Notes under the pieces: generated by a model | What the model saw: the letters and a program-made list of their open reading frames with translations, nothing else | The model's database searches: none | Told to the model about the DNA's origin: nothing | Translations under genes and position numbers: made by a program | From: Myxococcales bacterium | GTDB lineage: Bacteria; Myxococcota_A; UBA9042 | Reading direction: 5' to 3' | Assembly (NCBI GenBank): GCA_009692425.1 | Contig: SHZF01000022.1 | Location: 1-58,947, forward strand | DNA: 58,947 nucleotides | Shown here: positions 26,098-43,908 of the stretch, piece after piece | How positions within the stretch are numbered: the stretch's first letter is position 1 | Layout: each line of letters begins with the position of its first letter

Positions 26098-29000
26098 ATG
26101 CGGAATGCGAGGTTCGGCGGCGACACGGCAAGGTTGTGCAGCGCGATGGTGTGGGTCGGGTGCGTCCTCGCCGCCGCTTGCTCGAACGACGAGTCGGTGC
26201 CCGGGGCGTCGGTGACGACATCGAAGGACGTCGGCCTCGGCGGCGCCAAGCTCGGTGACGCGATGGGCTTGCTCCCCGATGGCGCCAAGCGCTCGGGCGA
26301 CACGGTCATCACAAACCTGGGCACGGTCGATGCGGGCCCACGGACCGACTTGCAACCTGTTGAAATATCTGTCGAAGATTTGGTCGATGGCGTGTCCGCT
26401 GCCACAGCGACCGATGCGGAACCGGCCGACGGGACCGCGGACATCGACGATGCCGCCTTGCCCGATGCCGCGATGGACACCGATGCCGCGATGGACACCG
26501 ATGCCGCGACGGACACCGACAGCGCGGGCGCCGTCGACGGGTTGACTCCGCCCGACGACGCAACGACCACCGAAGACGGCGCTGGGACCAACGACGCCAG
26601 CGACATGGCATCGGGCGACAGCGACGAGGTGGCCAGCGCCGATGCGGCCACAGGCGACACGGGCGGGATCCCGGGCGACCCGGACGCGGCCGGCGACGCG
26701 GCGCCTGGCGACGCTGCCGCCATCGATGCGGCGACCGACGTCTCGGCGCTGTGCCCGCCCGGCGGCCCGCTGGCCGAAGTGTGCGACGGAGCCGACAACG
26801 ACTGCGATGGCGCAACGGACGAACTGCCGGCGGACGGTGTCCTGTGCGATGACGGCAATCCGTGCACGAACGACACGTGCGGCGGCGCCGATGGCTGCAA
26901 GTCCGCCCCCGCCGCGTCGCCCTGCAACGCTGACAACAGCGCGTGCACGCAAGGCGATGCGTGCAAGGACAGCCTGTGCCTGCCGGGGACGGCCACAGTG
27001 TGCGACGACCAGAATCCTTGCACAGCCGACACGTGCGACAAGGCGACCGGTGCTTGTGTGTTCGCGGGCGCGCCCCAGGACGGTCAGCCCTGCGACGCCG
27101 ACGGCAGCGTGTGCACAGTCGGCGATGCCTGTGCGGGCGGCAAGTGCGCGCCGGGGCCCGGCAAGAACTGCGACGACGGCAATGCGTGCACCGACGATCC
27201 GTGCGACCTGGCCGGCGGGTGCGCCAACGTCGGCAACGCGAAGCCGTGCGAAGACGGCAACGGCTGCACCCAAGGCGACACCTGCAAGGACAAGTCGTGC
27301 GTGGCCGGCACCACGAAGGCCTGCGACGACGGCAGTTCGTGCACGGCCGATGCGTGTGACGCAAAGACCGGGGCGTGCGCGTTCGATGGCGTGCCGTTCG
27401 AGGGCAAAGCGTGCGACGCCGATGGCAGCGGCTGCACCGACGGCGACAGTTGCAAGGCCGGTAAGTGCACCGCCGGAGCCGCCAAGAGTTGCGACGATGC
27501 CAACCCGTGCACCGACGACTTGTGCGATGCCAAGGCCGGCTGCGCCTCCGTCGCGAACAAGGCTCCGTGCGAAGACGGCAACGCCTGCACGCTGGTCGAC
27601 GGTTGCAACGACAAGGTGTGCAGCGCTGGCGGCGCCAAGCCGTGCGACGACAAGAACCCGTGTACGGCCGACGGCTGCGACATCAAGACGGGGGCGTGCA
27701 CGGCGACGGGCGTTCCGGTCGAGAACGACCCGTGCGACGCCGATGGCAGCGGGTGCACCCAGGGCGACGCGTGCAAGGCGGGCGTGTGCAAGGCCGGCGG
27801 GGCGCTGGCCTGCGACGACGGCAACCCGTGCACCGACGACGCCTGCGACCCGAAGTCGGGCTGCACGGCGACCCCGCACGGCAAGCCTTGCGACGACGGC
27901 AATGTTTGTACCACGGGCGAGGTGTGCGGTGCGGGCAAGTGCACGGGCGGCGCGAGCGTGTGCGAGTGCCAGACCGACCAGGACTGCGCGGGCGCAGGTG
28001 GCGGCGACAAGTGCACGGGCGCGTTCGAGTGCGACAAGGCGAGCGCGCCGTTCCAGTGCAAAGTCATGCAGGGCACGCCGGTGGTGTGCCCGACGGCCAA
28101 CGACACCGCGTGCGGCAAGAACACCTGCCAACCCGGGAACGGCACGTGCGCGGTCGCCGCGATCAATGAAGGCAAGGCTTGCGACGCCGATGGCAGCGTG
28201 TGTACGTCGAGCGATACGTGTACGGCAGCGCAGTGCGTTGCCGGCACCAAGGTGGACTGCGACGATGCGAACCCGTGTACCGATGACGCGTGCGACCCCA
28301 AAGCGGGCTGCACACACGCGGCCAACACGGCGGCGTGCGATGCAGACGGCGACGCGTGCACGCTGGCCGATGCTTGCCAGGCGAAGGCCTGCCTCGCGGG
28401 GGCGCCCAAGACCTGCAACGACGGCAAGGCTTGCACCCAGGATGGATGCAACAAGAAGTCCGGCGCGTGCACGTTTGACGGTGCGCCGCAGGACGGCAAG
28501 GCCTGTGACGCCGACGGCAGCTTGTGCACGGTGAGCGACGCGTGTGCGGCCGGCACGTGTGTGCCCGGCGCCGCGCTGGCGTGCGACGACAAGAACGGCT
28601 GCACCGACGACAGTTGCGACCCCAAGGCAGGGTGCATGCAGAAGGCGAACACGGCGGCGTGCGATGCCGACGGCAATGCGTGTACGGCTGCGGACACGTG
28701 TGCCGGCAAGACGTGCGTGGCCGGCCCCGACAAGGTGTGCAACGACGCCAACCCGTGCACGGCAGACAGTTGTGACCCGAAGACGGGCGCGTGTGTGTTC
28801 TCCGCGCCGCCGCAAGACGGCAAGGCGTGCGATGCGGACGGCAACGTGTGCACGGTCGGCGACGCATGTGCGGCGGGTGCGTGCGTGGCGGGCGCGGCGC
28901 TGAAGTGCAACGACGGCAACGTGTGTACCGACGATGCCTGCGACGCGAAGGCCGGTTGCACGGCAGGCGCGAACACGGCCGCGTGCGACGCCGACGCCAG

Positions 29001-32000
29001 CGCGTGCACGGCCGACGTGTGTGCGAACAAGGCTTGCACAGCGGGAGCCCCCAAGGCTTGCAACGACGCGAATCCGTGTACCGCAGACGCGTGCGACCCC
29101 AAGACCGGCAACTGTTCGTTCGACGCCGCCGCGCAGAACGGCAAGGCGTGCGACGCCGACGGCAGTGCGTGCACGGCGGGCGACGCCTGCACGGCGGGGG
29201 CGTGCAAGGCGGGCGCGGCGCTGGTGTGCAACGACAGCAATCCGTGCACCGACGATGCGTGCGACGCGAAGTCGGGCTGCACGGCGAGCGCGAACACGAA
29301 AGCGTGCGAGGCCGACGGCAGCCTGTGCACGGTCGATGCGTGTGCCGCGAAGGCGTGCGTGGCGGGCACGGCCAAGGTGTGCAACGACAGCAATCCGTGC
29401 ACGGTCGATGCGTGCGTGGCGGCGTCGGGGGAGTGCGTGTTCGATGGCCTGCCGCAGGAAGGCAAAGCGTGCGACGCCGACGCGAGCGCATGTACCGTCG
29501 GCGACGCCTGCAAGGCGGGCGCGTGCAAGGCGGGCGCGGCGGCCAACTGCGAAGACTCGAACGGCTGCACGACGGACACGTGCGACGCGGGCACGGGCTG
29601 CCAACACGCGGCGAACAATGCTCCGTGTGATGCCGATGCCAGCGCGTGTACGGCCGACGTGTGCGCGAACAAGGCGTGCGCGCCCGCTGCACCCAAGGTG
29701 TGCGACGATGCCAACCCGTGCACGACGAACGACTGCACCCCGGCGACGGGGGCGTGCACGTTCACGAACAACACGGCGGCATGCACGGACAACAACGCGT
29801 GCACGGCGGGCGACGTGTGCGCGGGCGGCGCGTGCCAGTCCGGCGCGGCCAAGTTGTGCAACGACGGCAAACTCTGCACCGACGACGGCTGTGACAAGGC
29901 CAGCGGTGGGTGCACCGTCGCCAACAACACGCTGCCGTGCGACGACAGCGACGCGTGCACTGCCGGCGACACGTGCGGGTCGGGAGCGTGCGCCTCTGGC
30001 ACGACCAAGGTGTGCTTCGACGGCAAGGCCTGCACGAACGACAGTTGCGACAAGGCCACGGGCGCCTGCGTGTTTGCCAACAACACGGCGCCGTGCAACG
30101 ACGGCGACCTGTGCACTCCAACCGATGCGTGCGCCGCCGGCGCGTGCGTCGCGGGCAGCCCCAAGGCGTGCAGTGACGGCGACGCGTGCACGCTCGACGG
30201 CTGCACGAAGGCGACGGGAGCGTGTACGTTCGCGCCCATCGTGGGCTGCGGCGGCAACTGTGCCCAGGCGGCTGACTGCAACGACACGAACGGCTGCACC
30301 ACGGACGCTTGTTCCGCCGGCATGTGCACGTTCACGCCGAACACCGCGACCTGCGACGACGGCGACAAGTGCACGCCAACCGACACCTGCGCCGCCGGCG
30401 TGTGCGTGGCAGGTGCAGCGCAGGTGTGCTCCGACGGCAAGGTCTGTACCGACGACGCATGTACGACGGCGACCGGTGTCTGCACGTTCACCAACAACAC
30501 GGCGGCGTGCGACGACGACTCCCTGTGCACGGCCAACGACAAGTGCACAGGCGGTGCGTGCGCGGCAGGCGCGCCCAAGGTCTGCACCGACGGCAAGGTC
30601 TGCACCGACGACAGTTGCACGGCGGCGACGGGCGCGTGCGTGTTCTCCAACACCAGCGCGGCATGCGACGACGGCAACGGCTGCACGCTCAGCGACGTGT
30701 GCAGCGCAGGCGCGTGCCAGGCGGGCGCGGCCATGGCCTGCAACGACAGCAAGGCGTGCACGACCGACTCGTGCGACGTGGCTTCTGGGAATTGCGTGTT
30801 CGCCAACAATTCAATAGCTTGCGACGACGGCAACGCGTGCACCACGGGCGACACGTGCTCCGGCGGGGCGTGCACGGCGGGACCGGACAGAAACTGTGAC
30901 GACAGCAACCCGTGCAGCGACGACTCGTGCAATGCGGCGACAGGCTGCGTCAACGCAGCCAACACGGCGGCGTGCAACGCAGACGGCAATGCGTGCACAG
31001 CCGACGTGTGCAGCGCAAAGTCGTGCGTGGCCGGCGCACCCAAGGTCTGCAACGACAGCAAGGCGTGCACGACCGACTCGTGCGACACGGGCACCGGCAA
31101 CTGTGTCTTTGCCAACAACGCGGCCTCGTGTGACGACAACAACGCGTGCACGCTGGGCGACGCCTGCTCGGGCGGCGCGTGCGTGGCGGGGGCGGCAAAG
31201 AACTGCGACGACAGCAACCCGTGCAGCGACGACTCGTGCAACGCGGCGACGGGCTGCGTCAACGGGGCGAACACGGCGGCGTGCAATGCCGACAGCAATG
31301 CGTGCACGACCGACGTGTGCAGCAACAAGGCGTGCCTCGCCGGTGCGCCCAAGGTGTGCGACGACAGCAATGCGTGCACGACCGACTCGTGCAACACGGG
31401 CACGGGCGCGTGCGTGTTCGCCAACAACTCGGCCAGTTGCGACGACGGCAGCGCGTGCACGCTGGGCGACGCGTGCTCGGGCGGTGCGTGCCAGCCGGGC
31501 CCGGCGAAGAACTGCGACGACGGCAACGTCTGCTCCAACGACTCGTGCAACCCGACCAGCGGCTGCGTGAATGCGGCGAACGCGGCGGCCTGCAACGCGG
31601 ACGGCAACGCGTGCACACCCGACGTGTGCAGCAACAAGGTGTGCACGGCGGGCGCTCCCAAGGTTTGCAACGACTCGAACGTGTGCACGAACGACTCGTG
31701 CGACACGGGCAGCGGCAACTGCGTGTTCGCCAACAATTCCGCATCGTGCGACGACGCCAACGGCTGCACGCTCAGCGACGCTTGCTCCGGTGGATCGTGC
31801 GTGCCGGGCACGGCGAAGGTGTGCAACGACTCGAACGGCTGCACGAACGACAGTTGTACGGCGCCGGGCGGCGCGTGCGCGTTCGTCAACAACACGGTGG
31901 GCTGCAACGCCGACAGCAACGCATGCACTCAGGGCGACGCGTGCGCGGGCGGCTCTTGCGTGGCCGGCACGCCCAAGGTCTGCAACGACACGAATGGCTG

Positions 32001-33825
32001 CACGAACGACAGTTGCGACACGGTGAGCGGCAACTGCGTGTTCACCAACAACTCGGCCAGTTGCGACGACGCCAACGGCTGCACGCTCGGCGACGCCTGC
32101 TCGGGCGGCGCGTGTGTGCCCGGCACGGCCAAGGTGTGCAACGACTCGAACGGTTGCACGAACGACGCGTGCACGGTGCCGTCGGGTGCGTGCGCGTTCA
32201 CGGACAACACGGCGGCGTGCAATGCCGACGGCAACGCGTGTACCCAGAGCGACGCGTGCTCCGGCGGAGCGTGCGTGGCCGGCACGCTCAAGGTCTGCAA
32301 CGACTCGAACGGTTGCACGACAGACAGTTGCGACGCGGCCAGCGGCAACTGCGTATTCACCAACAACTCCGCGACGTGCGACGACAGCAACGGCTGCACG
32401 CTGGCCGACGCCTGCACGGGCGGCGCTTGCGTACCGGGCTCGCCGAAGACGTGTACAGACGCCACGGTCTGCACGACCGACGCGTGTTCGGCGCCGAGCG
32501 GGACCTGCACGTTCACGAACAACACCCTGGCGTGCGACGCCGACGGCAAAGCCTGCACGCAGAGCGATACCTGCACGGGCGGAGTTTGCGTGGTCGGTGC
32601 CCCCAAGAACTGCGCCGACGCCAATGCGTGCACGACCGACGCCTGCACGGAACCCGCCGCGGCGTGTGCGAACACTGTCGTAGCCGACATGACGTCGTGC
32701 GGTGCGAGCCTGTTCTGCCAGACCGGCGTGTGTGCGCCATGCAAGCTCTACGCCAAGAACATGACGACGCAGAACAACAGCGATCTCGAAGCGGTGACGG
32801 CGTTCGGCACGGGCTTCCTGTACGCGGGCACCAAGGCGGTCGCGGGCGTCGGCACGCAGGGCTGGCTCATCGCGATCGACGTGACCGGCGCCACGACGTT
32901 CGAGAAGTACTTCGGCGCTTCGAACGACGACGCGTTCCACGACATCGCGGCCGATGGCGCCGGCAACTTCTACCTGGCCGGCTCACGCCACTTCGGCGGC
33001 AACGGCAACCGCAACGGCTGGCTCGTCAAGGTGGATGCCGCGGGCACCCAGCTGTGGGAGCAGACGACGGGCGGCGTTCGCCCCGACGAGTGGCGCGCGG
33101 TGCAGGTGTTGGCGAACGGCGACGTGCTGGTGGCCGGCTACGAGCGCTCGAACGCCGCAAACGATTTCCACGGTTGGGCGGCGCGCTACACCGCCGCGGG
33201 TGTCAAGTCGTGGGAGACGAGCGTGCCGGTACCGTCGCGCGGCGAATTCTATGACGCGGTCGAAAACGCGGACGGGTCGCTGGTGCTGTACGGCTACTCG
33301 CAGGTCACCCCCAACAACCGGCAGGGCTGGCGCCAGAACATGACGGCGGCGGGCGTGGCCGGCTCGCAGTTGTTCTACGGGTTGGGCAACAACGACGAGT
33401 TCCGCGGCGCCAAGCGGTTGGCCAATGGTACGACGATCGTGGTCGGGTTCATCCACAACGGCAGCGACGACGGCTGGGTGCTCCAACTCGACGCGGCCGG
33501 GGTGGTGGTCTGGCAGAAGACGACGCTGGGCGACGGCAGCAACGCCGACCAGTTCGACGATGTGGCGGTGCTGCCGGACGGTTCGGTCGTCGTTGTCGGC
33601 ACGAAAGACCCGGCGGGCGGCGTGCCGGCGCAACCGTGGGCGATGACGTTCACAGCCACGGGGACACAGGTTCTCGACTTACTGTACCCGGGCTCCGGCA
33701 CCTCTTCGGGCTACCTGCTCGGGGTCGCCGCAGCGAGCGACGGCGGGTTCGCAGCGGCGGGGCGCCTGAGCGGCCTAGGGTACGCGCTGCGGGCACGGTC
33801 GACTGGCGGCGTCACCTGCCCGTAG
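26098..33825 (+). CDS. Giant Cys-rich repeat lipoprotein with C-terminal beta-propeller-like domain
   Basis: A 2575-residue exported protein. A signal peptide ends in a lipobox (VLAAAC, Cys28). Residues 29-215 are an Asp/Ala/Thr/Gly-rich linker with short repeats. Near 222-245 lies a MopE-like motif (EVCDGADNDCDGATDE). From about 246 to 2214 there are some 36 cores of the CxDxxxCTxDxC type by my count. Each is paired with a second Cys half, so the unit averages roughly 55 residues. The final 360 residues look like a six- or seven-bladed propeller of GW-VxxDxxG strands ending in TCP. The cysteines probably form disulfides, and the Asp-rich units may bind metal ions (inference). GAGG before the ATG supports the start. 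Its exact role is unknown; a surface or adhesion structure is likely. Confidence 0.88.
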   Translation: MRNARFGGDTARLCSAMVWVGCVLAAACSNDESVPGASVTTSKDVGLGGAKLGDAMGLLPDGAKRSGDTVITNLGTVDAGPRTDLQPVEISVEDLVDGVSAATATDAEPADGTADIDDAALPDAAMDTDAAMDTDAATDTDSAGAVDGLTPPDDATTTEDGAGTNDASDMASGDSDEVASADAATGDTGGIPGDPDAAGDAAPGDAAAIDAATDVSALCPPGGPLAEVCDGADNDCDGATDELPADGVLCDDGNPCTNDTCGGADGCKSAPAASPCNADNSACTQGDACKDSLCLPGTATVCDDQNPCTADTCDKATGACVFAGAPQDGQPCDADGSVCTVGDACAGGKCAPGPGKNCDDGNACTDDPCDLAGGCANVGNAKPCEDGNGCTQGDTCKDKSCVAGTTKACDDGSSCTADACDAKTGACAFDGVPFEGKACDADGSGCTDGDSCKAGKCTAGAAKSCDDANPCTDDLCDAKAGCASVANKAPCEDGNACTLVDGCNDKVCSAGGAKPCDDKNPCTADGCDIKTGACTATGVPVENDPCDADGSGCTQGDACKAGVCKAGGALACDDGNPCTDDACDPKSGCTATPHGKPCDDGNVCTTGEVCGAGKCTGGASVCECQTDQDCAGAGGGDKCTGAFECDKASAPFQCKVMQGTPVVCPTANDTACGKNTCQPGNGTCAVAAINEGKACDADGSVCTSSDTCTAAQCVAGTKVDCDDANPCTDDACDPKAGCTHAANTAACDADGDACTLADACQAKACLAGAPKTCNDGKACTQDGCNKKSGACTFDGAPQDGKACDADGSLCTVSDACAAGTCVPGAALACDDKNGCTDDSCDPKAGCMQKANTAACDADGNACTAADTCAGKTCVAGPDKVCNDANPCTADSCDPKTGACVFSAPPQDGKACDADGNVCTVGDACAAGACVAGAALKCNDGNVCTDDACDAKAGCTAGANTAACDADASACTADVCANKACTAGAPKACNDANPCTADACDPKTGNCSFDAAAQNGKACDADGSACTAGDACTAGACKAGAALVCNDSNPCTDDACDAKSGCTASANTKACEADGSLCTVDACAAKACVAGTAKVCNDSNPCTVDACVAASGECVFDGLPQEGKACDADASACTVGDACKAGACKAGAAANCEDSNGCTTDTCDAGTGCQHAANNAPCDADASACTADVCANKACAPAAPKVCDDANPCTTNDCTPATGACTFTNNTAACTDNNACTAGDVCAGGACQSGAAKLCNDGKLCTDDGCDKASGGCTVANNTLPCDDSDACTAGDTCGSGACASGTTKVCFDGKACTNDSCDKATGACVFANNTAPCNDGDLCTPTDACAAGACVAGSPKACSDGDACTLDGCTKATGACTFAPIVGCGGNCAQAADCNDTNGCTTDACSAGMCTFTPNTATCDDGDKCTPTDTCAAGVCVAGAAQVCSDGKVCTDDACTTATGVCTFTNNTAACDDDSLCTANDKCTGGACAAGAPKVCTDGKVCTDDSCTAATGACVFSNTSAACDDGNGCTLSDVCSAGACQAGAAMACNDSKACTTDSCDVASGNCVFANNSIACDDGNACTTGDTCSGGACTAGPDRNCDDSNPCSDDSCNAATGCVNAANTAACNADGNACTADVCSAKSCVAGAPKVCNDSKACTTDSCDTGTGNCVFANNAASCDDNNACTLGDACSGGACVAGAAKNCDDSNPCSDDSCNAATGCVNGANTAACNADSNACTTDVCSNKACLAGAPKVCDDSNACTTDSCNTGTGACVFANNSASCDDGSACTLGDACSGGACQPGPAKNCDDGNVCSNDSCNPTSGCVNAANAAACNADGNACTPDVCSNKVCTAGAPKVCNDSNVCTNDSCDTGSGNCVFANNSASCDDANGCTLSDACSGGSCVPGTAKVCNDSNGCTNDSCTAPGGACAFVNNTVGCNADSNACTQGDACAGGSCVAGTPKVCNDTNGCTNDSCDTVSGNCVFTNNSASCDDANGCTLGDACSGGACVPGTAKVCNDSNGCTNDACTVPSGACAFTDNTAACNADGNACTQSDACSGGACVAGTLKVCNDSNGCTTDSCDAASGNCVFTNNSATCDDSNGCTLADACTGGACVPGSPKTCTDATVCTTDACSAPSGTCTFTNNTLACDADGKACTQSDTCTGGVCVVGAPKNCADANACTTDACTEPAAACANTVVADMTSCGASLFCQTGVCAPCKLYAKNMTTQNNSDLEAVTAFGTGFLYAGTKAVAGVGTQGWLIAIDVTGATTFEKYFGASNDDAFHDIAADGAGNFYLAGSRHFGGNGNRNGWLVKVDAAGTQLWEQTTGGVRPDEWRAVQVLANGDVLVAGYERSNAANDFHGWAARYTAAGVKSWETSVPVPSRGEFYDAVENADGSLVLYGYSQVTPNNRQGWRQNMTAAGVAGSQLFYGLGNNDEFRGAKRLANGTTIVVGFIHNGSDDGWVLQLDAAGVVVWQKTTLGDGSNADQFDDVAVLPDGSVVVVGTKDPAGGVPAQPWAMTFTATGTQVLDLLYPGSGTSSGYLLGVAAASDGGFAAAGRLSGLGYALRARSTGGVTCP
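26860..32690 (+). repeat. Coding tandem array of Cys-rich units
   Basis: Nucleotide-level repetition of a roughly 165-bp unit encoding CDDGNPCTDDxC-type cores runs through most of the giant lipoprotein gene. Units diverge by synonymous and conservative changes, with runs of closer similarity toward the 3' side (30730-32440), suggesting recent local duplication. The array creates very long open frames on the opposite strand. Confidence 0.8.
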
Positions 33826-34302: not shown

Positions 34303-34612
34303 GGCCGGCTCCACTGCCTTGCAGCGAATGAACGCGAACGACGGGTTCAGCGAGGGGGCAAGAGGATAAAGGAGAGGACCCACCAACGTCAACGGGATTT
34401 TTCGCGACCGGCGGAAGGGGGCCTTGCGTCACGAGGTGCGGCGTGCTATCCATCTCCGCGTTGGGCTGGCCGTGCGCCGGCGCCGCGTTCCTCCGCCCGA
34501 GGCCTTGCAGCTTCGGCACCGTGCGGCAGCGAGAAAGCGTTGGCGACTTGCGCAGGCAAGAAAGCGTTGGCGACTTGCGCAGGCAAGAAATCGTTGGCAA
34601 ACGGCGCGTTCC
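34303..34612. other. Leader region of tRNA-Ala with tandem repeat
   Basis: This 310-bp gap between the divergent PilZ gene and the tRNA contains a weak promoter-like pair (TTGCGT 34424-34429, TATCCA 34447-34452, 17-bp spacing) and a 27-bp tandem repeat just before the tRNA. No coding frame is convincing. Confidence 0.4.
34533..34598 (+). repeat. 27-bp tandem repeat directly upstream of tRNA-Ala
   Basis: Two perfect 27-bp copies (34533-34559 and 34560-34586) and a degenerate third part copy (34587-34598) share GAAAGCGTTGGCGACTTGCG followed by CAGGCAA. Each carries TTGGCG, a possible -35-like hexamer. The array ends 14 bp before the tRNA 5' end. Confidence 0.85.
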
Positions 34613-34685
34613 GGGGGTGTAGCTCAGCTGGGAGAGTACCTGAATGGCATTCAGGGGGTCACGGGTTCGATCCCCGTCACCTCCA
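34613..34685 (+). tRNA. tRNA-Ala (anticodon GGC)
   Basis: A full cloverleaf is visible. The acceptor stem pairs GGGGGTG with CACCTCC and includes the G3-U70 pair, the alanine identity element. The D arm is GCTC-AGCTGGGA-GAGT; the anticodon stem CCTGA/TCAGG encloses ATGGCAT with anticodon GGC; the T arm is ACGGG-TTCGATC-CCCGT. The discriminator is A, and CCA is not encoded. A strong terminator follows at 34723. Confidence 0.97.
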
Positions 34686-34722
34686 CCCGGCGGCAGGAAG
34701 GCAGCGCGCTCGACACGACCAA

Positions 34723-39063: not shown

Positions 39064-39498
39064 TCAGCGGTTCCGGTTCGCGGCGAACTCCTTCCCGGTG
39101 AACGAGAACGCGTCGATCTTCCAACTGTTGCCCACCTTTGCCAAGGCGACGTCATAGCGCGTCCCGATCGCCTTGTCGCCCATCCGGCGCAGTTTCACGA
39201 CTGCGCGGTCGCCATCGACGTCGACTCCCTCGACGTTTTCCGTCACGAGGTAGTAGTACGGGTGGCGCGCTGAGGAACGCACGTCGTCGGCGCGCGCCAA
39301 CGCGAGCAGGCCAGCCATGAGCGGGCGAGAATCGTCGGTGAATCCATCAAGAAATCCAGCCTCGTCGCCCAGCATCGCACACGACGCGGTGCGCAGGAAT
39401 GCGTCGCCGGGGCTCTCGGAGTACAGGAACTTCCAATAGACAAACGCGGCGCCTGCAATCAGGGCCAGCACGAGCAACGTCACCAGGAGTTTCTTCAC
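39064..39498 (-). CDS. Small exported or membrane-anchored protein of unknown function
   Basis: A 144-residue protein with an N-terminal hydrophobic helix (LLVTLLVLALIAGAAFVYW), followed by a soluble domain. The domain ends in DVALAKVGNSWKIDAFSF, reminiscent of small lumazine-binding/NTF2-like domains that close with a WKID strand; this is only a resemblance. The start is GTG 39498, the last member of a 20-bp tandem array in which each upstream copy reads as a GTG-initiated 7-codon frame. It is followed 29 bp later by the aldolase gene. Confidence 0.65.
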   Translation of the reverse strand: MKKLLVTLLVLALIAGAAFVYWKFLYSESPGDAFLRTASCAMLGDEAGFLDGFTDDSRPLMAGLLALARADDVRSSARHPYYYLVTENVEGVDVDGDRAVVKLRRMGDKAIGTRYDVALAKVGNSWKIDAFSFTGKEFAANRNR

Positions 39499-39570
39499 GG
39501 CACACGACTCTTCTTCACGGCAGACGACTTTTCTTCACGGCGGACGACTTTTCTTCACGGCGCACGACCT
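39491..39570 (-). repeat. 20-bp tandem array of overlapping micro-ORFs into a gene start
   Basis: Four 20-bp units run head to tail. On the minus strand, each of the three upstream GTG triplets opens a 7-codon frame: MKKSRPP, MKKSRLP and MKKSRVP. Each ends in a TGA that overlaps the next GTG as GTGA. The fourth GTG is the start of the 144-residue gene (MKKLLVT). The unit is 20 bp, so successive starts lie in different frames. Whether any micro-ORF is translated is unknown. Confidence 0.85.
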
Positions 39571-39626
39571 GGGCGGGCACGACCCACCGCGCGCTTGCGA
39601 TCGTGCGGCGCGACTCGGCTGCGGCG

Positions 39627-40046
39627 CTACTCAGCAGCAGGAGGACGCAGGTTGGCATAGAACGCATCCATGTCGAGCAGGTCAATGCGCCACTGGCCTT
39701 CGACCAGACGCATCGGCACGCTCACCTTGCGGTTGCCCTGCACGACCACCACCTCCGCCCGGCGACCGCGCTCGATCGCCTCCTTGACCTCACCCTTTGG
39801 CAGCAGCGCGGGCGATGGCTTGCCGTCGCGCAACACCCGAAAGGCGCGCCCCGACTGGCTGACGACGCCCGGCGCTGCTTCGAGCAGGGTTCGCGAGCGC
39901 GGTTCGAGCAGGTCAAGGAACGCGGCGTCATCGCGCGACTGCAGGGCCTGGCGGGCGTTGCCGTACACGATCTCCGGCGCATCGCGGCAGGCGACCAGCG
40001 CGAACAAGGCGAGCGACATGGCAAGGGGCAGGCGGGCGGCGTGCAT
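39627..40046 (-). CDS. Small lipoprotein of unknown function
   Basis: A 139-residue lipoprotein with signal peptide MHAARLPLAMSLALFALVAC; the acylated Cys is residue 20. The mature part starts RDAPEIVYGNARQALQSRDD and ends with a strand pair containing VEGQWRIDLLDMDAF. This resembles the WKID-type ending of the 144-residue protein that follows on the same strand, so the two may be distant relatives with an NTF2-like fold (inference). The frame opens to 40115, but ATG 40046 starts a proper signal peptide. Confidence 0.75.
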   Translation of the reverse strand: MHAARLPLAMSLALFALVACRDAPEIVYGNARQALQSRDDAAFLDLLEPRSRTLLEAAPGVVSQSGRAFRVLRDGKPSPALLPKGEVKEAIERGRRAEVVVVQGNRKVSVPMRLVEGQWRIDLLDMDAFYANLRPPAAE

Positions 40047-40144
40047 GACGGCTCGGCACGTCGCACGCCGGTGCGGCGAAGTCAAGCTCACGGGGCGACG
40101 GTCTCTGCGCGTCATCTCATCGAACCGGCACTGCGGATGGCACG

Positions 40145-40173
40145 TTGCCGTCGGCGCGCCCCTGCCCTACAGT
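40145..40173 (+). promoter_or_regulatory. Candidate promoter of the deoxynucleoside kinase-glpD group
   Basis: TTGCCG (40145-40150) and TACAGT (40168-40173) are exactly 17 bp apart, each four of six to consensus, in the divergent gap before the kinase start at 40199. The position argues against the in-frame TTG at 40145 being a start codon. Confidence 0.5.
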
Positions 40174-40198
40174 CACCCGGCCGCCGCGGAGCCTCGCT

Positions 40199-40954
40199 GT
40201 GCCATCCCCATCGCCCGCATTGCAGCGCCCGTCGCCTCAACGGCTACACGTCGTCGATCCGCGCCCCCCGGAGGCAGCGCTGCTGGGCCGCGCCCGCTTC
40301 GTCGCCGTTGCGGGCAACATCGGCGCCGGCAAGTCGACGTTGACGGCGTGGTTGGCGGCCCAGTTCCGCATCCAGCCGTTCTACGAGTCCAACGACGCCA
40401 ACCCGTACCTGACTGATTTCTATGCCGACATGGCGCGGTTCGCGTTCCACAGTCAGATGTACTTCCTGTCAGCGAAGTTCCGCGCTCACCTCGAATTGGC
40501 GCGCTGTCTCGGGGCCGATCCGCAGACCGTGTTCGTGCAGGACCGCACGATTTACGAAGACGCCGAGATTTTCGCGCGCACCCTGCACACCCGGGGCGTG
40601 ATGGACGCCCGCGACTTCCAGACCTATCTGGCCATGTACGAGGGGATTCGCGCGGCGCTGCCCAAACCGGACCTGCTCATTTTCCTGCGCTGTTCGCTGC
40701 GTGGCCTGCACCGCCGCATCGCCGCACGCGGCCGGCCGGAAGAGCAGGCGATCGACCCCAAGTACCTCGGCGCGCTCCAGCGGGCCTACGAGGCGTGGTT
40801 CGAGCGCTACGATCTCGGCCCCAAGATGGTCATCGAGACCGAGCAGTTGGACTATCTCGCGGACGTGTTCGACCGCCAGGACCTCGTGAGCGCGATTGAT
40901 GCCATGCTCGGTGGGCGCGCCCAAGCCTTTGCGCCCGCACCCCGCGCCGACTAG
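40199..40954 (+). CDS. Deoxynucleoside kinase
   Basis: A 251-residue kinase of the deoxyadenosine/deoxyguanosine/thymidine (dNK) family. It has the P-loop GNIGAGKST, the substrate-pocket FESND-like YESNDANPY, the DRTIYEDAEIF motif (DRS/E type) and the LID arginines in SLRGLHRRIAARGRPEE. It phosphorylates deoxynucleosides for dNTP salvage in the cytoplasm. GTG 40199, with GGAG seven bases upstream, is preferred over TTG 40145, which coincides with a -35-like box. The preference among dA, dG, dC and dT cannot be read safely. glpD follows within about 50 bp. Confidence 0.88.
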   Translation: MPSPSPALQRPSPQRLHVVDPRPPEAALLGRARFVAVAGNIGAGKSTLTAWLAAQFRIQPFYESNDANPYLTDFYADMARFAFHSQMYFLSAKFRAHLELARCLGADPQTVFVQDRTIYEDAEIFARTLHTRGVMDARDFQTYLAMYEGIRAALPKPDLLIFLRCSLRGLHRRIAARGRPEEQAIDPKYLGALQRAYEAWFERYDLGPKMVIETEQLDYLADVFDRQDLVSAIDAMLGGRAQAFAPAPRAD

Positions 40955-43559: not shown

Positions 43560-43644
43560 GCGGGCCCCAAGGCTGTGGTTTGATGGCGTGGACGACCGTC
43601 GGACCCAGCGGCGGAAACTCCGGCCGAACAAGGCGCGGAACGAC

Positions 43645-43695
43645 GGCATGAACGGCATGAACGGCATGGACGGCATGGACGGCATAAACGGCATG
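43645..43695 (+). repeat. 9-bp tandem repeat carrying successive in-frame ATGs
   Basis: Five complete copies of GGCATGRAC, one with ATA instead of ATG, and a final partial copy leading into ATGAAG. Starts lie at 43648, 43657, 43666, 43675 and 43693. Confidence 0.85.
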
Positions 43696-43908
43696 AAGCG
43701 AACGCTGCGCAGGCTCGGGATGGCTGGGGTGTTGGTTGTCGCGTTGGGCGCTTGCGACCGGCCGTGCCGGCAACTTGGCGAACAGCTCTGCGTGCGTGCG
43801 GGCAGCGACGACTCCCAATGTGATCGCTGGAGGGACCGGGTCAAGCGAGTGGCCGAATCGACCTGCGAAGCCGGCCTGCGCATCCTCGACCGCGAACGCG
43901 CGCGCTGA
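43648..43908 (+). CDS. Small Cys-containing lipoprotein with repeated start codons
   Basis: A short lipoprotein of 86 residues if read from ATG 43648, or 71 from ATG 43693. The shorter form begins MKRTLRRLGMAGVLVVALGAC, a standard lipoprotein signal peptide. The extra N-terminal part consists of 3-residue units (NGM, DGM, INGM) from a 9-bp tandem repeat, each with an in-frame ATG except one ATA. GGAAC before 43648 is the only Shine-Dalgarno-like stretch. The mature 51 residues carry four further cysteines (CDRPCRQLGEQLC, CDRW, TCEAG) and a basic helix. No family is recognised. Confidence 0.7.
   Translation: MNGMNGMDGMDGINGMKRTLRRLGMAGVLVVALGACDRPCRQLGEQLCVRAGSDDSQCDRWRDRVKRVAESTCEAGLRILDRERAR

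Follow-up and report, generated by a model that had tools for sequence, protein, structure and literature searches.

A 20-bp tandem array spanning the GTG start of a small membrane protein gene in a Myxococcales bacterium, with three stop/start-overlapping 7-codon micro-ORFs

Within the window, by which we mean the whole 58,947-nucleotide stretch of DNA that was analysed (contig SHZF01000022.1), the start codon of a gene for a 144-residue protein lies inside a tandem array of 20-bp units, and each of the upstream copies opens a micro-ORF that ends on the start of the next. Comparison with orthologues indicates that the gene's own initiation region was duplicated in tandem within one lineage. 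We favor the reading, with a probability of roughly 0.65, that it is a slippage product tolerated through a ribosome relay and not a dedicated control device. The features of the locus are as follows.

39627-40115, minus strand: upstream lipoprotein-like gene (longest ORF; the codon-usage caller puts the start at 40046)
39569-39626, minus strand: leader remnant from the upstream stop to the array, with no sigma70-like promoter or terminator found in the region
39490-39568, minus strand: tandem array, 3.95 copies of the 20-bp unit GTCGTnnGCCGTGAAGAAAA, 79 bp, start codon inside
39535-39558, minus strand: micro-ORF 1, GTG AAG AAA AGT CGT CCG CCG TGA, encoding MKKSRPP
39515-39538, minus strand: micro-ORF 2, GTG AAG AAA AGT CGT CTG CCG TGA, encoding MKKSRLP
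39495-39518, minus strand: micro-ORF 3, GTG AAG AAG AGT CGT GTG CCG TGA, encoding MKKSRVP, its TGA overlapping the GTG of the gene
39064-39498, minus strand: gene for the 144-residue protein (codon-usage gene call), with an N-terminal membrane helix and an alpha+beta domain in a predicted model

Structure of the array and the genes around it

TRF reports the array on the minus strand with a period of 20, 4.0 copies, 91% matches and a score of 123. Read from 39568 to 39490, the copies are GTCGTGCGCCGTGAAGAAA, AGTCGTCCGCCGTGAAGAAA, AGTCGTCTGCCGTGAAGAAG and AGTCGTGTGCCGTGAAGAAA, followed by CTCCTG, and they are identical to one another at 17-19 of 20 positions. Each unit consists of approximately 11 nt of leader followed by GTG AAG AAR, and the fourth copy is the start region of the gene itself (GTG AAG AAA). 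The preliminary description had counted three 20-bp units. Its micro-ORF pattern, GTGAAGAARAGTCGTNNGCCGTGA, does match exactly three times on the minus strand (39518-39495, 39538-39515 and 39558-39535) and nowhere else in the 4.94-Mb genome, in which the reversed pattern gave 0 matches; the repeat, however, has four copies, the fourth being the gene's start region. What had been overlooked is the position of the unit across the gene's own start. The GTGA-overlapping 7-codon ORFs themselves were found as described, on the minus strand, which had not been named: the three upstream GTGs each open an ORF encoding MKKSR[P/L/V]P, and every TGA overlaps the following GTG. With TGA stops at -59, -39, -19 and +1, the array closes all three reading frames, in each case at a GTG.

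The assignment of the fourth GTG, at 39498, as the start of a 144-residue exported or membrane-anchored protein is backed by orthologue alignments. In 20 orthologues, 19 from the same family and 1 from another family of the class, the alignment begins at residue 1 or 2, and nearly all show, at the corresponding position, an ATG, GTG or TTG with AAR AAR directly behind it; in a few (L007 and L008) the start lies one codon farther out. Since the orthologues start at the homologous place, the called start is supported. A Pfam search with the protein returned no match, and there were weak matches to NTF2-like folds and to the NCBIfam Rv0361-like family, the latter under that family's cut-off. The protein is a widely conserved small membrane protein and not a recognised surface antigen.

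A homologue of the lipoprotein-like gene, the stop of which is at 39627, lies just upstream in 17 of the 20 orthologues. The intergenic gap of the pair in orthologues is often 9-40 nt. In a distant relative (L024) the upstream stop overlaps the start by 4 nt as ATGA, and in L014 a TAG stands approximately 21 nt ahead of the start, as read from the sequence, the scripted gap value of 489 being an artefact. Here the gap is 128 nt, 60 nt of which are extra units. Given the conserved upstream neighbor, the short gaps in relatives and this contribution of the units to the gap, the two genes are probably an operon in whose junction the array has grown. They form a conserved pair of small exported or membrane proteins (39627-40115 and 39064-39498, minus strand), both without a Pfam family. 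A gene on the opposite strand (39399-40343, plus strand) was considered and rejected; codon usage and orthologues favor the minus-strand genes.

Origin of the array and of its stop/start overlaps

The preliminary description had proposed that homologues be checked for the array, and 0 of the 20 orthologues has a repeated unit upstream of the start. Their start region is single-copy, and the leader is unconserved, so just the GTGAAGAAR half of the unit is recognisable. A chain of three GTGAAGAAR units was found only at this locus among 52 class genomes. Because all 20 orthologues start homologously and none has the array, it represents a lineage-specific tandem duplication of the gene's own initiation region. 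This comparison covers other genera, and the array has been seen in one genome, whose nearest named relatives are uncultured Myxococcales and Deltaproteobacteria. As in a duplication by slippage, the copies stand head to tail and their source is single-copy in relatives; the outermost copy runs on into the leader. An origin by slippage is well supported. Pairs of copies show 1-3 differences in 20 bases, so the array is of some age, and there could be a reason for its retention.

A rival reading is that the array is a set of DNA or RNA binding sites for a regulator, iteron-like or TAACTGA-like, with the ORFs incidental. Direct repeats just before starts have been proposed as regulator sites in Beggiatoaceae (PMC4679880). 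However, the unit is found at this locus only in the genome, it contains coding sequence of the gene, it is missing from the orthologues, and Rfam gave no match at the gathering score. We consider a binding-site array most unlikely.

The overlaps between the micro-ORFs follow from simple arithmetic. Whenever a start is written RTGA and is copied in tandem at a spacing of 3n+2, a TGA falls in frame with the previous start. The start here reads GTGA and the unit is 20 bp (3n+2), and therefore self-terminating, coupled 7-codon ORFs arise automatically, whereas a random unit length would give them 1 time in 3. Since the overlap arises in this manner, coupling alone is no evidence of design. A 3n+2 unit together with an RTGA or TGATG start would represent a harmless route for start-codon duplications, yielding self-terminating ORFs that pass to the next start.

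Start signals and a possible ribosome relay

The outermost GTG, which opens micro-ORF 1, is preceded at 8 nt by an AGGT. Its anti-SD energy, -6.3 kcal/mol, equals or surpasses that of 70% of called genes. The inner three GTGs have an anti-SD energy of -3.7 kcal/mol (43% of called genes), and the median for random sequence is -3.0. The AGGT could be a secondary site, the ancestral form of the first copy being either AGGT or AAGT.

A scenario consistent with these signals begins with slippage or a similar event that would have copied approximately 11 nt of leader and the first three codons to four copies. As in any tandem duplication, the original upstream context would then stay with the outermost copy and the body of the gene with the innermost. 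Most ribosomes would load at the outermost GTG, the sole one with an AGGT at 8 nt, and some would be passed down the three stop/start overlaps by termination-reinitiation to the gene for the 144-residue protein. Thanks to this relay the cost of the duplication would be small, and it would be tolerated with no regulatory role needed. We infer this loading and hand-down, and hence the tolerance. A relay along the micro-ORFs is plausible because 13 of 14 native ATGA and TGATG stop/start pairs proved coupled in experiments (PMC6728339), and because the MIRU elements discussed below are analogous (PMC12548453). The inner GTGs may also initiate on their own.

Nearly as likely as the relay is that the micro-ORFs are unused. 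The same duplication would then be a passive leftover, in which ribosomes initiate at the gene's GTG in copy 4, either directly or on an mRNA whose 5' end lies in or near the array, and the micro-ORFs have no effect; if transcription were to begin inside the array, the relay would be moot. Consistent with this, the energies of the inner starts are close to those of random sequence, weak SD sites are also present at many other genes of this genome, the TGA/GTG overlap is a matter of arithmetic, and the RNA fold is no stronger than that of shuffles (z = 0.69). On the other hand, the sole above-average SD-like site sits before the outermost GTG, and a search restricted to sigma70-like promoters and terminators found none in or near the array. 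We regard an unused array as a serious possibility of somewhat less than even odds, and retain the tolerated, relayed duplication as our preferred reading.

Occurrence in the genome and comparison with known systems

The genome carries a high load of tandem repeats, into which a duplication of this kind fits. In a sample of 2.60 Mb, approximately half of the genome, with 1853 genes from a codon-usage scorer and computed gene starts, TRF found 1071 arrays, and an order-2 Markov control had 285; at scores of at least 100 the numbers were 133 and 0. Because the control gives none at this score, the array is not a product of chance. Non-3n arrays over starts were not enriched in the 2.60 Mb (12 seen versus 10.7 expected from intergenic density), and another 20 non-3n arrays of 14-30 bp with at least 2.8 copies are intergenic or sit where genes end. 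Periods of 3n+2 and other non-3n periods were in a ratio of 9:3 at starts and 21:19 between genes (p = 0.15). A post hoc subset that copies the start codon gave 7:0 (p = 0.02), a bias that we do not claim, as 3 of the 7 are without coupled ORFs and several of the starts are computed only. In other respects the array at 39490-39568 would pass as one ordinary repeat among the many of this genome.

These results bear on the suggestion, made in the preliminary description, that changes in copy number tune translation. Here, slippage would alter the number of coupled starts and hence the output of the exported protein, as at a contingency locus. The copy number of tandem arrays can indeed change, and repeats between promoter and start codon alter the expression of Moraxella uspA1 and uspA2 (PMC4679880). 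Against this, the array is known from one genome in a comparison limited to other genera, its copies have already diverged to an extent that lowers slippage, and its target, a widely conserved small membrane protein, is no recognised surface antigen. A tuning role finds no support here, since none of the 20 orthologues carries the array, the overlap is automatic and start-spanning arrays are not enriched, and we judge it improbable.

The same arrangement was found at two unrelated genes in the surveyed half of the genome. At the first (L126, G000:C45, 12119-12069, minus strand), a 20-bp unit in 2.5 copies covers the TGATG stop/start junction at which a ferredoxin-like gene meets a TPR lipoprotein gene, and the duplication adds one coupled 6-codon ORF; in several relatives this type of junction is single-copy, the ferredoxin-like protein ending near RRWDDK. 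At the second (L182, G000:C74, 5835-5878, plus strand), a 23-bp duplication of ATGAAGGTCGGAGACACCCCAGC (1.9 copies) with an ATGA start stands before a 1295-codon gene, named kinase-like by eye, and the first copy forms an 8-codon ORF ending in a TGA that overlaps the ATG of the gene. Both arose independently of the array at 39490-39568. Together with that array they provide natural cases, with two or four starts at unrelated genes, for measuring serial reinitiation through micro-cistrons. A bolder idea, that relay leaders of serial 6-8-codon coupled cistrons are recurrently built in this genome by selectable 3n+2 tandem amplification of gene starts, with copy number setting translation of the downstream gene, strikes us as quite improbable.

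Other repeats are present in the window. A 9-bp array of the GGCATGAAC type (43643-43697, plus strand, 6 copies) extends in frame into the beginning of a conserved 71-residue lipoprotein (MKRTLRRLGMAGVLVVALGACDRP..., 43693-43908), giving it several in-frame ATGs. A nearly perfect 27-bp tandem repeat of 2.5 copies (34532-34598, plus strand) ends approximately 15 nt before a tRNA-Ala(GGC) at 34613-34687, and a long called gene (26146-33825, plus strand) contains many Cys-rich repeats of approximately 156-159 bp (TRF arrays 28484-32650).

A literature search, with subscription journals mostly outside its reach, found no report of serial micro-ORFs that arose by duplication of a gene's own start. 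The MIRU elements of mycobacteria, which are roughly 46-100 bp long, are the closest precedent. On insertion at a gene's start, their ORF becomes coupled to that gene at -4 nt (Supply et al. 1997, as described in PMC12548453), likely with minimal impact on the gene's expression (PMC12548453). Like MIRUs, the array places short repetitive units and small ORFs with a -4 nt (NTGA) overlap at start codons, and MIRUs have likewise been proposed to keep the downstream gene expressed. Unlike MIRUs, which are dispersed at many loci and apparently mobile, the 20-bp unit derives from the gene's own start, occurs at this locus alone and resides in a host that is not a mycobacterium.

Coupled uORFs (PMC6728339; the iraD uORF, PMC5574718) resemble the micro-ORFs in that the stop of the uORF lies on or directly beside the next start, so that an upstream ORF could deliver ribosomes. 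Those cases, proved by experiment, involve one ORF or complete genes, whereas here there are three near-identical, putative 7-codon ORFs in series. The nearest repeat arrays at starts are the TAACTGA arrays of Beggiatoaceae and cyanobacteria, which often stand in place of an SD site (PMC4679880). They too are tandem repeats that abut starts and close all three frames, but their heptamer is common to many genes, whereas the unit here is private and contains the start codon. Finally, the intergenic minisatellite-like arrays of the same genome share with this array units of 14-30 bp, approximately 3-6 copies and a locus-specific sequence; they lie between genes or at stops, whereas the array at 39490-39568 spans a start.
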